64,000 nucleotides of DNA from Anaeromyxobacter dehalogenans 2CP-1 (GTDB lineage: Bacteria > Myxococcota > Myxococcia > Myxococcales > Anaeromyxobacteraceae). Numbering within the stretch: the stretch's first letter is position 1; every line of letters begins with the position of its first letter. Below, piece by piece: positions 40,510-59,758 of the stretch. The translations under genes and the position numbers were made by a program. The notes under the pieces were generated by a model. The model did no database searches, was not told the DNA's origin, and saw only the letters and a program-made list of their open reading frames with translations. The stretch is from contig NC_011891.1 in assembly GCF_000022145.1 (NCBI RefSeq), positions 1,562,001-1,626,000 of the forward strand, in the 5' to 3' direction.

Positions 40510-40674
40510 CTCAGAGCGCGTGAATCCATCCCCGGACCGAGCCAGGCGGTCGAGACGCGAGCAGCGCGAGGCGCGACGACCGAGCATGCCCCGAGGCATG
40601 TGAGGGAGGAGCAACGACGCGATGCGACGCGGATCGGCCGCCGCGGCGACGGGAGGGGGGGCACGTGCTCTCAG
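40510..40674. mobile_element. MITE-like element, copy 1
   Basis: A 165-bp non-coding element nearly identical to the one at 57085-57253. Left end CTCAGAGCGCGTG; right end CACGTGCTCTCAG. Relative to copy 2 the inner part of the right inverted repeat is altered and 4 bp shorter (a run of Gs replaces GGATGGGTT). A CATGCC-CCGA-GGCATG hairpin lies at 40585-40600. CGCG flanks both ends (40506-40509 and 40675-40678), as expected for a 4-bp target duplication. The right end overlaps the stop codon of the gene at 40671-41402. Confidence 0.7.
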
Positions 40675-41402
40675 CGCGGAGGGGGCGTGGGGCGGGCGGC
40701 CGACGCGGCGGCGAGCGATCGCCGAAGGACCCAGGCGATGGCGAGAAGGACGGCGCCCGTCCCGAGCGCCGGCAGGATCAGCGCGCCGGCGCCGCCGCGG
40801 CCGGCCGCCAGCGTGGCGCGGAGCGCGGTGACGTCCGCGGCGAGCGACCCGACGTACACCGAGACGACGAGGCCCGGGAGGCTCCCGAGCAGCGACGCGA
40901 GCGCGAAGGCGCGGAGCGGCACCGGCGTCGCGCCGAGCAGGTAGTTGAGGACGGTGAACGGCGCGAACGGCGCGAGCCGCAGCAGCAGCACCACGCGGAA
41001 GCCGGAGGCGCCCAGCGCGGCGTCGAGGCCCGCGAGGGCGGGGGAGCGCGCGGCCAGCCGGGCGGCGCGCTCCCGCACCAGCCAGCGGCCGGCGCCGAAC
41101 GCGGCGCAGGCGCCGGCGGTGCTGGCCGGGATGGCGAGGAGCGAGCCGGTCACCGGCCCGAGCGCGAACCCGGCGGCGAGGTGCAGCAGCGGAGCGGGCA
41201 CGAGGAGCGGGCCGCTCGCGACGTAGGCCGCCGCCAGCGCGGCGGCGGCGGCGGGCGCGCTCTGCCGCAGCGCCTCGAGCGCGCGGGTGGCGGGGCCCGG
41301 GGCGAGCGCGGCGAGCGCGGCCGCGACCGCGACGACCAGCAGGGCGGCGGCGGGCCGGGCGAGCCGGGCCAGCCGGCCCGGCGGAGGGGAGGAGGGGAGC
41401 AC
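40671..41402 (-). CDS. TVP38/TMEM64-family membrane protein
   Basis: A 243-residue inner-membrane protein related to the SNARE-associated/VTT (DedA-like) family. Hydrophobic helices at about 15-35, 50-90, 150-165 and 200-225 surround the characteristic FRVVLLLRLAPFAPFTVLNYLLGATPVPLRAFALASLLGSLPG motif region (about 135-180). Probable lipid-transport or membrane-homeostasis role. The GTG start is 6 nt after a TACACT element with no ribosome site. The TGA stop, and hence the C-terminus, lies inside the terminal repeat of the adjacent MITE-like element, so the tail may have been reshaped by insertion. Confidence 0.8.
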   Translation of the reverse strand: MLPSSPPPGRLARLARPAAALLVVAVAAALAALAPGPATRALEALRQSAPAAAAALAAAYVASGPLLVPAPLLHLAAGFALGPVTGSLLAIPASTAGACAAFGAGRWLVRERAARLAARSPALAGLDAALGASGFRVVLLLRLAPFAPFTVLNYLLGATPVPLRAFALASLLGSLPGLVVSVYVGSLAADVTALRATLAAGRGGAGALILPALGTGAVLLAIAWVLRRSLAAASAARPTPPPR

Positions 41403-41408
41403 GCGCGC

Positions 41409-41414
41409 AGTGTA
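41409..41414 (-). promoter_or_regulatory. -10 element abutting the TVP38-like gene start
   Basis: TACACT on the minus strand (AGTGTA on the plus strand), 6 nt before the GTG at 41402; a minus-strand example of the leaderless arrangement. Confidence 0.4.
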
Positions 41415-41455
41415 GCGCCCCTCGGTCCCATCCGCCCGGCCGCGCCGCCCGCGGG

Positions 41456-41992
41456 TCACTCGCCGAGGGTGGCGCGCAGGAACCAGCCGTGCTTCTCCAC
41501 GCCGGCGATGACGCCGGTGAGCAGGTCCACCGTCTCGGGGTCGCCGTGCTCGTCGGCGAGCGCCTGCGCGGCGCGGAGGCTGCCCAGGTACGCCTCCACC
41601 CGGTCGGCGAGCAGCCCGACCAGCTCGAGGTCGCGGACGGCGCCCGCGGGCAGCTCGGGCACGCGGCTCGTCGCGGCGACCTCGCGCGCGGTCCCGGCGG
41701 CGCGGCCGCCCAGCGTCACGGCCCGCTCGGCGAGGTCGTCGGAGTGGCGGGCGAGCGCGGTGGCGAGCTCCTCGAACAGCGCGTGGAGCGGGGCGAAGCC
41801 GGGCCCCTTCACGTTCCAGTGCGCGACCTTCGCCTGCGTCTGCAGGTCGAGGCCGTCGGCGAGGGCGGCGACGAGCGCGTCGGCGACGCGGCGGCGGTCG
41901 GGCTCGGCGAGCGCGCTGGGGCTGCGGAACAGGTCGCGGCGGGGGCGGGGGGGCTGGGGGGTGGCGGTCGGGGTTCGGGTCGTGGTCGTCAT
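41456..41992 (-). CDS. dps: Dps-family ferritin-like DNA-protecting protein
   Basis: A 178-residue Dps/ferritin-like protein that would form a 12-mer storing iron and using peroxide as oxidant. The intersubunit ferroxidase pattern is seen: AKVAHWNVKGPGF (His), LHALFEELATALARHSDDLAERA (Asp and Glu), followed by the C-terminal helix with VEKHGWFLRATLGE. The N-terminus (MTTTTRTPTATPQPPRPRR) is Thr/Pro/Arg-rich and could contact DNA. A GAGGAGG ribosome site precedes the ATG. Divergent from thiS across 173 bp. Confidence 0.9.
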   Translation of the reverse strand: MTTTTRTPTATPQPPRPRRDLFRSPSALAEPDRRRVADALVAALADGLDLQTQAKVAHWNVKGPGFAPLHALFEELATALARHSDDLAERAVTLGGRAAGTAREVAATSRVPELPAGAVRDLELVGLLADRVEAYLGSLRAAQALADEHGDPETVDLLTGVIAGVEKHGWFLRATLGE

Positions 41993-42126
41993 GTTCAGGT
42001 CCTCCTCTCGGACGCGAAGGAGGATGCCGCCCGGCCGCTGATAACTCCAAGACATCGTCTCGATGGCACTGATATCCGAAAGCTGTCACGGGCGGAAGCA
42101 GTCCGGCGCCGGCGCGCCCGCGGCGT

Positions 42127-57080: not shown

Positions 57081-57084
57081 GGCG

Positions 57085-57253
57085 CTCAGAGCGCGTGAAT
57101 CCATCCCCGGACCGAGCCAGGCGGTCGAGACGCGAGCAGCGCGAGGCGCGACGACCGAGCATGCCCCGAGGCATGTGAGGGAGGAGCAACGACGCGATGC
57201 GACGCGGATCGGCCGCCGCGGCGACGGGAGGGGATGGGTTCACGTGCTCTCAG
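57085..57253. mobile_element. MITE-like element, copy 2 (intact ends)
   Basis: A 169-bp non-coding element with 24-bp terminal inverted repeats (57085-57108 and 57230-57253) that match at 21 of 24 positions; the left begins CTCAGAGCGCGTGAATCC, and the right reads CTGAGAGCACGTGAACCC on the other strand. GGCG flanks both ends (57081-57084 and 57254-57257). The internal 120 bp appear identical to copy 1, including a CATGCC-CCGA-GGCATG hairpin at 57160-57175. No transposase frame. The family was not matched to a named IS; a Tpase in trans is implied. Confidence 0.75.
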
Positions 57254-58038
57254 GGCGCGCGCGCGCCGCGCACGCTCGCCAGCATCGCGCGCACCGGCCC
57301 CAGGTCGATCTCGCTCACCGCCGCGACCAGCAGGCGGCGCCCGTCGTTCGAGAACCACAGGTGCAGCGGGCGCGCCCGCGCCGCCGGGTCGTCGGCGCGG
57401 CGCGCCACCGCGTCCACGCGCAGCGTCTGGAACCGGCCGGCGGGCGTGTCCACCGGCTCGATCTTCCGCGCGACCGTCCCCTCCAGCCGCCAGAAGCGCC
57501 GGTTCGCCACCAGCTCGAAGCAGAACGCCTCCCCTGGCGCGAGGCGCGCGGCGCGCAGCAGGTAGACCGCCGAGAGCGCGTCCAGCACCGGGCCCTGGCG
57601 CGGGTACGACGTCTTCCCCTCGCGGTCGCCGTAGCGGTATGCGACCACCACCTCGCCGGCCGGCGGCGCGAGCCGGGTGTCGCTCACCTTGCGGACGCCG
57701 TTCTCCAGCGCCTCGTCGCGGTACCGCTCGGGCAGGAGCGTGTCCGCGTCGATCCAGGAGAACCCCACCGCGGTGACGTTCTTGAGCGCGGCGAGGGAGG
57801 CGTCGGTGCGCGCGCGGGCGCGCAGCGGGATGACGCGCCCGCGGGACATGGGGCGCTCCACCGAGAGCTGGAGCGTGCCGGTGCGCACCATGCCGAGCAG
57901 GTCGAGATCGAAGGTGAGCGTCTCGCCGGGGCCCCAGGGGCGGGCGCCGGCGGCGAGCGGCGGCGGGCCGCAGGCCGGGGCGGCCGGAGCGGCGGATGGG
58001 GCGAGCAGGGCGAGCACGAGCAGCGCGGCGGAGGTCAT
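57250..58038 (-). CDS. DUF3108-domain exported protein
   Basis: A 262-residue protein with a signal peptide (TSAALLVLALLAPSAAPAAPA) and a DUF3108-like fold: WGPGETLTFDLDLLGMVRTGTLQLSVE, FSWIDADTLLPERYRDEALENG, and a C-terminal LHLWFSNDGRRLLVAAVSEIDLGPVRAML. DUF3108 proteins are beta-rich, periplasmic or lipoprotein-like, and of unknown function. Its final codon and stop lie in the MITE-like element's right repeat. A related but diverged copy is at 59808-60557, with a DUF4091 protein between. Confidence 0.75.
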   Translation of the reverse strand: MTSAALLVLALLAPSAAPAAPACGPPPLAAGARPWGPGETLTFDLDLLGMVRTGTLQLSVERPMSRGRVIPLRARARTDASLAALKNVTAVGFSWIDADTLLPERYRDEALENGVRKVSDTRLAPPAGEVVVAYRYGDREGKTSYPRQGPVLDALSAVYLLRAARLAPGEAFCFELVANRRFWRLEGTVARKIEPVDTPAGRFQTLRVDAVARRADDPAARARPLHLWFSNDGRRLLVAAVSEIDLGPVRAMLASVRGARAP

Positions 58039-58066
58039 CTGCGGCGCCCCGGCCGCGCCCGGGCGC

Positions 58067-59758
58067 TCAGCGCGCCGCCAGCCGCCGGGCGAGCGCGTCC
58101 CCCAGCCGCCGGCGCGCCGCGAGCCAGCGGGCCGGGTCGCGCTCCCACCCGCGGGCCGAGGGCACCAGCGCCTCCGCCGTCGTCGCGGCGAGGCCGCCGA
58201 GGCCCGCGGCGGACGCGAGCCGCAGCAGCTCCACGTCCTCCAGCGCGTCGCGCACGATCTTGAGCCGGATGGACTCGACCGGGAACGGGCGCGTCCCCCC
58301 GAGCATGGCCGGCCGCCCCGGGTAGAGCAGCGTCCCGTCGCCATTCCCCGCGAACGCGCGCACGTCGGTCCATGGGTCGCCTCGCCAGGCCTGGAGCATA
58401 TCGTAGTAGAGCTCGCCGGAGAGGCCGCGCCGCCAGCCCAGCCAGGCCACCGCGCGCGCGGCCGCGCCCGGCCGGTCCACCTCGTAGCCCGGCCAGCCGG
58501 TGAACGTGCGGCGCATCTCGGCGTGGAGCGGGCCTTCCCCGGGCAGCTCCGCGCACCCGTGCGACATGCAGGACGCGTAGGAGAAGGCCACGCGCGGCGG
58601 CGCGCGCCCGTCCGGCAGCGCGTTCAGCACCGGCGCGTAGGCGTCGACCAGCCCGTCCAGCGCGGGCTGCGGGAGCGTGGTGGCGAACACGCGGATGCCC
58701 GCGGCGCGGGCGAGGCGGGCGCGGCGCGCCAGCTCGGTGACCTGGTCCGGCCGCGGCTCGTCGAGCGTGTACAGCCAGAGCCGGTCCGCCCATCCGCGCG
58801 CCTCGAAGTGCGTCCGCCACGCGCGCAGCGTGGCGGCGAGGTCCGCCTCCGGCCCGTTCCAGACGCGTCCGGCGATGCGCACCTCGGCGAACGCGCCGCG
58901 CACGCCCGGCACGAGCGTCCCGTCCAGCACCGGCCCGACCTCGGCGTCGTAGCGCGTCCAGTCGAGCGCGCAGCGCGCCGCCGTGCAGGTGCCGTCGGGC
59001 GGATCGGCCGACAGCGTGTACGGCGTCACCCGGTGCCGCAGCGCCGCCGCGGCGAGCGCGCGGGCCACCTCGGGATCGTCGGGGACGCCGAGCGCGCGGG
59101 TGCCGAGCCGGGTGGAGAGGCCGAACGGCGCGGCGAACGTGCCGGTGCGCGGGATCGCGAACGGCCACACCCGCAGCCGGACCGGGACGGCGGCCGCGCG
59201 CCGTCCGCCGTCCGAGAGCCGCACCACGCCCGCGTAGCCGCCGGGCGCGGCGTCCGCCGGCACGCAGACCTCCACCCAGATCGCCTGGAGCCGGCCGGTC
59301 GGGACCTCCACCGGGAACGCGCGCCGCGCCTCGCGGAACCAGGGGTCGCGCGCCGGGACGAGCGGGTCCGGCCACTCGCCGGCGGCGCCGTCCGGCCCGC
59401 TCGGCCGCGCCAGGCGCACCGTCGCCACGCGGTAGAGCGCGACCGGGATCCGGCGCCCGCGCCGGCGCTCGTCCGGGGCGAGCGGCGCGGCCTCGGCCGC
59501 GAGCGCCACAGGGACGCCGCGGGGCCGCACCGCGACCTGCGCCGACTCGCACTCGCCCTGCGCCGCGACCAGGTCCACCGCGCGGCCGGGCGGGAGCGGA
59601 TCGGTGGGCCTGAGCTTGTCGAGGCCGCTCGCCACCGCCCACTCGAGCGCCTCCGGCGCGGCCCGAGGGACCGGGCCGGGGCGGGCGAGCGCGAGCAGGG
59701 CGAGCAGGATCGCGGGAGCGGCCACGCCGCGAAGGTGGGCGCCCGGGCCCTCGGGCAC
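58067..59758 (-). CDS. DUF4091-domain exported glycoside-hydrolase-like protein
   Basis: A 563-residue protein with a hydrophobic N-terminus (VAAPAILLALLALARPGPV). The C-terminal half (LWLYTLDEPRPDQVTELARRARLARAAGIRVFATTLPQ to WTDVRAFAGNGDGTLLYPG) matches the DUF4091 pattern of putative secreted glycosidases; DEP in LDEP is the likely catalytic or binding site. The N-terminal half is beta-rich (ECESAQVAVRPRGVPVALAAEA) like a carbohydrate-binding sandwich. Start is GTG at 59758 or 59725. Together with the two DUF3108 genes it may be an envelope-glycan operon. Confidence 0.7.
   Translation of the reverse strand: MPEGPGAHLRGVAAPAILLALLALARPGPVPRAAPEALEWAVASGLDKLRPTDPLPPGRAVDLVAAQGECESAQVAVRPRGVPVALAAEAAPLAPDERRRGRRIPVALYRVATVRLARPSGPDGAAGEWPDPLVPARDPWFREARRAFPVEVPTGRLQAIWVEVCVPADAAPGGYAGVVRLSDGGRRAAAVPVRLRVWPFAIPRTGTFAAPFGLSTRLGTRALGVPDDPEVARALAAAALRHRVTPYTLSADPPDGTCTAARCALDWTRYDAEVGPVLDGTLVPGVRGAFAEVRIAGRVWNGPEADLAATLRAWRTHFEARGWADRLWLYTLDEPRPDQVTELARRARLARAAGIRVFATTLPQPALDGLVDAYAPVLNALPDGRAPPRVAFSYASCMSHGCAELPGEGPLHAEMRRTFTGWPGYEVDRPGAAARAVAWLGWRRGLSGELYYDMLQAWRGDPWTDVRAFAGNGDGTLLYPGRPAMLGGTRPFPVESIRLKIVRDALEDVELLRLASAAGLGGLAATTAEALVPSARGWERDPARWLAARRRLGDALARRLAAR

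Follow-up and report, generated by a model that had tools for sequence, protein, structure and literature searches.

MITEs, with the Correia, RUP, ERIC and Nezha-type elements as bacterial examples, are commonly regarded as passive remnants of a single transposon. The element described here occurs in two copies within a 64,000-nucleotide stretch of the genome of Anaeromyxobacter dehalogenans 2CP-1 (the window), and it resembles bacterial MITEs in being short, multicopy and devoid of open reading frames (ORFs), in carrying terminal inverted repeats and in probably being mobilised in trans by an IS whose ends resemble its own. However, it departs from them in having a covarying, structured core that is found phylum-wide and combined with many unrelated ends, and in concentrating its insertions on stop codons. 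REP and REPIN elements are, like the present one, extragenic, hairpin-forming, non-autonomous and of high copy number, whereas REPs are not as long and are not known to carry long terminal inverted repeats. A structured, RNA-like sequence spread by mobile elements is also known from the HEARO/IsrB omega RNA, but the element has no match in Rfam even at E=10, so that no known RNA family was identified (the window as a whole has no match either), it is bounded by terminal inverted repeats, and no IsrB-type gene was seen in association with it.

With the IS1182 family, the element shares ends of the type GAGNCYGTGAA, a TGA or TCA immediately outside these ends and insertion at CTCAG/CTGAG. Unlike members of this family, it encodes no transposase, and its core is absent from 80 IS1182-family loci. 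IS1272, a member of the same family, is reported to replace inverted-repeat targets without duplication (PMC5678879), whereas the clean insertion sites of the present element lose nothing and gain a TCA, the sites with rearranged left flanks being ambiguous in this respect. In the open literature, no description of the element family or of stop-codon insertion by an IS1182-type system was found; the family, which is spread across the myxobacterial phylum, is thus apparently undescribed.

Copies, boundaries and empty sites

A preliminary description of the window had reported two near-identical copies with long terminal inverted repeats at 57085–57253 (copy 2) and 40510–40674 (copy 1), and both are present at these places. 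Judging from the 46 copies of the home genome and from empty sites, the boundaries have to be moved inwards, the element proper occupying 57089–57249 on the + strand in copy 2 (161 bp) and 40514–40670 on the + strand in copy 1 (157 bp, with a 4-bp deletion in the right arm). In nearly all copies of the genome, the direct repeat on both sides is TCA, inside CTCAG. At copies in which a base other than G follows the right TCA (TCAA, TCAC), TCAG is generally retained on the left and, therefore, the G is assigned to the element, which is 161 bp long and runs GAGCGCG...GTGCTC. The outer CTCA/TCAG of the inverted repeats as first proposed is target sequence or a carried trimer.

In copy 2, the flanking TCA trimers lie at 57086–57088 and 57250–57252, the latter being the TGA stop of the right-hand gene on the minus strand (57250–58344), which is also present at the orthologous empty site of a sister genome; the frame ending there comprises 100 open codons with a GC3 of 0.99. 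The terminal inverted repeats, about 20 bp each, are found at 57089–57108 (GAGCGCGTGAATCCATCCCC, + strand) and 57230–57249 (− strand, reverse complement GAGCACGTGAACCCATCCCC), and both resemble IS1182-family ends. Between them, a structured, RNA-like core extends over 57106–57232 (+ strand), supported by the fold z-score of the whole copy, by covariation and by a match to the covariance model R1. Copy 1 is organised in the same manner, with TCA at 40511–40513 and at 40671–40673, the TGA stop of a right-hand minus-strand gene (40671–42089) whose frame has 100 open codons and a GC3 of 0.96, and with the structured core at 40531–40657 (+ strand; covariance model match of 128.4 bits).

Further copies are numerous. 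The genome, a single contig of 5,029,329 bp, yields 43 BLAST matches to the 169-bp query, four of them identical to copy 2 (copy 2 itself and identical versions at three other places), and 95 matches to the 24-bp end pattern against 0 for a control pattern. Compiled without duplicates, these amount to 46 near-full-length copies plus fragments. Deletion derivatives also occur, for example two abutting ends at 91826–91873 and a 127-bp form at 1051744–1051870. The multiple copies, the existence of empty sites and the lack of any ORF of its own, transposase or other, bear out the earlier view of a MITE-like, non-autonomous element.

Empty orthologous sites, which the preliminary description had proposed to look for, were located by synteny in the sister genome (G002, 5,013,479 bp), where the covariance model finds no match to the core. 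About 20 sites could be aligned and about six of them are clean (4323525, 117970, 4712531, 4786496, 3998846 and, nearly, 3185), having one TCA when empty and two when filled; nothing is lost and a TCA is gained. The insertion sites are lineage-specific, being empty in the sister species, and some left flanks differ from the empty site beyond the insertion alone. In six copies, which mostly share one haplotype, the left trimer is TCG while the right one is TCA, so that the element may bring its left trimer along instead of duplicating the target, a reading with which the mismatched flanks of copies in another genome (G183) also agree.

The 4-bp target duplications of the preliminary description, GGCG at copy 2 and CGCG at copy 1, do not hold, as the four bases outside the CTCAG ends differ between the two sides at most other copies. 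For copy 2, in which GGCG had been read as such a duplication, the empty site of the sister genome reads TGAGGCATGGCGCCTCCCGTCAGGGCGCG, in which the left GGC and the right GGCG are already in place, and both are thus older than the insertion. The left flank ends in GCG in 20 of the 46 copies, compared with about 16% of the stop-codon CTCAG sites of the sister genome, an excess that could reflect a target preference or carried sequence. Given this recurrence, the GGCG repeat at copy 2 is a recurrent left context combined with a coincidence.

Stop-codon insertion and a candidate helper

At 38 of the 43 non-stacked copies, including both copies of the window, the right-end TCA is the in-frame TGA stop of a coding frame, which was required to have coding-type GC3 and to be free of other stops for a minimum of 60 codons (in nearly all cases, 100); this count was made by hand and becomes 39 when copy 3407772 is scored by its second TCA. 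The same definition applies to 29.5% of the CTCAG sites found in 1.1 Mb of the sister genome, and to about 41% of those lying outside genes according to a crude gene caller. The corresponding binomial probabilities are about 1e-15 and 1e-10, values that depend on the crude gene caller; even against a more generous background of about 50%, the excess would still be clear. CTCAG itself is rare in the regions of the sister genome surveyed (L153–L212), with 410 sites in 1.1 Mb on both strands. The orientation relative to the target strand is fixed in the home genome, where copies lie in the arrangement TCA..TCA with the structured strand antisense to the target gene, whereas copies with type B ends in two other genomes (G003 and G007) have the arrangement TGA..TGA. 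By a crude test, 21 of 45 copies lie between convergent genes. In CTAG-type genomes, 24 of 70 ends fall at stop codons under a crude rule, a weaker tendency than in the home genome.

In five cases, the same 1.5-kb sequence directly follows the right end of the element, one of these copies being internally deleted. It encodes a 427-aa transposase with DUF772 and DDE_Tnp_1 domains that matches the IS1182 model of NCBIfam (NF033551) with 370 bits against a cut-off of 270. This IS1182-family element is present in ten copies in the genome, all bounded by CTCAG/CTCAG apart from one with GTCAG on the left, and five of the ten sit exactly on the right-end CTCAG of a copy of the 169-bp element. Its ends (GGGACCGTGAAG / GAGAGCGTGAAG) resemble those of the element (GAGCGCGTGAA / GAGCACGTGAA), and IS1182 relatives in other phyla have GAGNCYGTGAA ends with TGA/TCA outside. 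Moreover, head-to-tail stacks sharing a CTCAG are found at 304054/304217, 393183/393229 and 2200710/2200748, an arrangement to be expected if the target site is restored at each insertion.

The expectation of the preliminary description that an enzyme acts in trans is supported by this IS1182-family element, which shares the sites of the repeat. As for the full-length IS with the same 24-bp ends that it had suggested seeking, the ends of the IS1182 element are similar to those of the repeat and not identical. Judging from these ends and sites, the IS is the probable helper that moves the element. Outside the home genome, the IS1182 element is absent from the other core-bearing genomes; a search for its transposase in 40 relatives gave nothing but one distant partial match, and tblastn against loci L233–L328 gave no match. 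A derivation of the core from the IS1182 element was also considered and rejected, the best match among the 80 family loci having an E-value of 0.066.

The structured core and its different ends

The core comprises about 127 nt and forms, on one strand, a long hairpin with many G.A-type internal loops; for the whole 169-bp copy 2, the fold z-score is −11.5 for the + strand as against −5.2 for the − strand. Between GGACCGAGC and GCGACGGGAG, relatives from other genera can be aligned well. Among 25 sequences, compensatory changes are present in 15 of 35 pairs, a signal far outside the range of shuffles and slid controls. Among 41 distinct sequences, compensatory double changes affect 30 of the 35 pairs, with 291 double-change cells against 78 in shuffles, in an alignment fitted to the covariance model, which favours the structure, and with many sequences lying outside the model-building set. 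In each of the 25 sequences, the better fold is that of the + strand, partly because G-U pairs are common on the + strand. Within the order, the covariance model detects the core in 31 of 145 genomes, and within the phylum in 39 of 195 genomes, or 27 of 90 genera. This covariation argues that the core is under selection for its fold across the phylum. Base pairing does not discriminate between RNA and folded single-stranded DNA.

In turn, the 20 bp adjoining the core differ between genera and yet remain inverted repeats of each other. The end types include GAGCGCGTGAATCC, GAGGTCGTGAATC, GAGCCTGTGAGG and GGGTTGTTCAGAATG, as well as AGAGCRCCGAWCAGGTTGRC, AGAGCACATCTCATAACCCC, GCACTGCTGCGTCAGATCCC, CAGGGTGCTGAAAATCCC and others. 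Within G007, cores with type B and type D ends are 84–88% identical while the ends are only about 48–57% identical; within G010, the cores of types C and D are 89% identical and the ends 48–59%. About 15 further end types exist, and long terminal inverted repeats abut the core in nearly all. Near-identical cores with unrelated terminal repeats point to the core as a heritable unit whose ends have changed. The best reading of these comparisons is that ends have been exchanged many times on a conserved core, even within one genome; drift of long-hairpin ends that stay complementary would mimic such an exchange.

Pattern searches for autonomous partners of the other end types in G093, G143, G057, G183, G007, G010, G029, G035, G041, G162 and others yielded isolated ends and whole or fragmentary cores, and the loci inspected contained no transposase; draft assemblies often lose such repeats. 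As an autonomous IS with type B-, C- or E-like ends, the only candidate was a 2.46-kb element in G007 (L488 191-2648; G007:C1:1505490-1507947) whose ends are IS1182-like and which is flanked by TGA at either end, with what appears to be the end of a gene on its left side; it carries an HNH-type ORF in place of a transposase. In G162, which belongs to another class of the phylum, the matches to its end type are exceptionally many (about 200) and the copies include short forms of about 61–114 bp. Four 159-bp elements in G183 (L272, L276, L280 and L284) share one terminal inverted repeat type and have a divergent interior with GGACCGAGCC and GGCGACGGGAG kept at the edges; the two flanks of the G183 copies do not match each other.

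Nature and significance of the element

Copies, sites and covariation are read from the genomes, and the movement itself is what we infer from them. We consider it probable that the locus represents a non-autonomous transposable element of about 161 bp with a heritable folded core and changing ends, likely moved by the IS1182-family element, and with a core active as RNA or single-stranded DNA. A DDE transposase of the IS1182 family would recognise ends of the type GAGNNCGTGAA, move the element in trans and insert it with a fixed orientation into (C)TCA(G), which in most cases is the TGA that terminates a gene. Since TCA would stay on either side, the gene would keep its stop, and the regenerated site could take further copies. 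The folded core would be the unit of inheritance, its ends being replaced as helper transposases changed, and these changes presumably followed the transposases available.

An ordinary MITE, that is, a deletion derivative of the local IS1182 element with functionless inherited hairpin DNA as its interior, would also be multicopy and free of ORFs, would have ends like those of the local IS and would account for the four identical copies, as after a recent burst. Nevertheless, such an interior would not be expected to be missing from the 80 IS1182-family loci, to be kept with compensatory changes over 27 genera, also with unrelated ends, or to fold asymmetrically between strands in all 25 members tested, so that this explanation is already disfavoured and appears unlikely. 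Alternatively, the element could be a structured 3' UTR RNA serving the host as a terminator, stabiliser or binding site and mobile only incidentally, for which the position at stop codons would be the selected function, in line with the 38 of 43 right ends and with the copies between convergent genes. Against this rather improbable alternative stand the lineage-specific sites, empty in the sister species, and the orientation relative to the gene, which is not conserved between the home copies and type B; this difference suggests that the role of the core is not for a particular host gene.

A strand-specific hairpin in intergenic position and in fixed orientation to its target, with some end types lacking an obvious duplication, also recalls REP-like or IS200/IS605-like single-stranded elements moved by an HUH (RAYT-type) enzyme. 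However, long terminal inverted repeats abut the core in nearly every end type, comparison with the empty sites reveals a repeated TCA, and the genome contains an IS with a DDE transposase that shares the insertion sites and has similar ends, which makes this explanation very improbable. Returning to the transposable element with a folded core, the fold has been retained although the ends, the species and the target changed, which suggests a contribution of the core to the spread of the element itself, and we infer that it works as RNA or folded single-stranded DNA promoting that spread. More tentatively, the core RNA could itself take part in transposition, making the family a phylum-wide class of mobile structured RNA genes, a possibility that we regard as somewhat doubtful. 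The core RNA might then recruit a host factor or transposases belonging to several unrelated families; if true, this would explain why the fold is kept, why the repeats are exchanged and why the element follows whichever transposase its genome contains.

The combination of a conserved interior fold with changing ends implies selection on the non-coding part of a bacterial MITE, and the role of RNA or single-stranded DNA structure in trans-mobilisation thereby becomes testable. Insertion at stop codons with TCA kept on either side is a simple 'safe haven' strategy. Moreover, the element would merit an entry as a new RNA family and would supply a model for annotating Myxococcota genomes.
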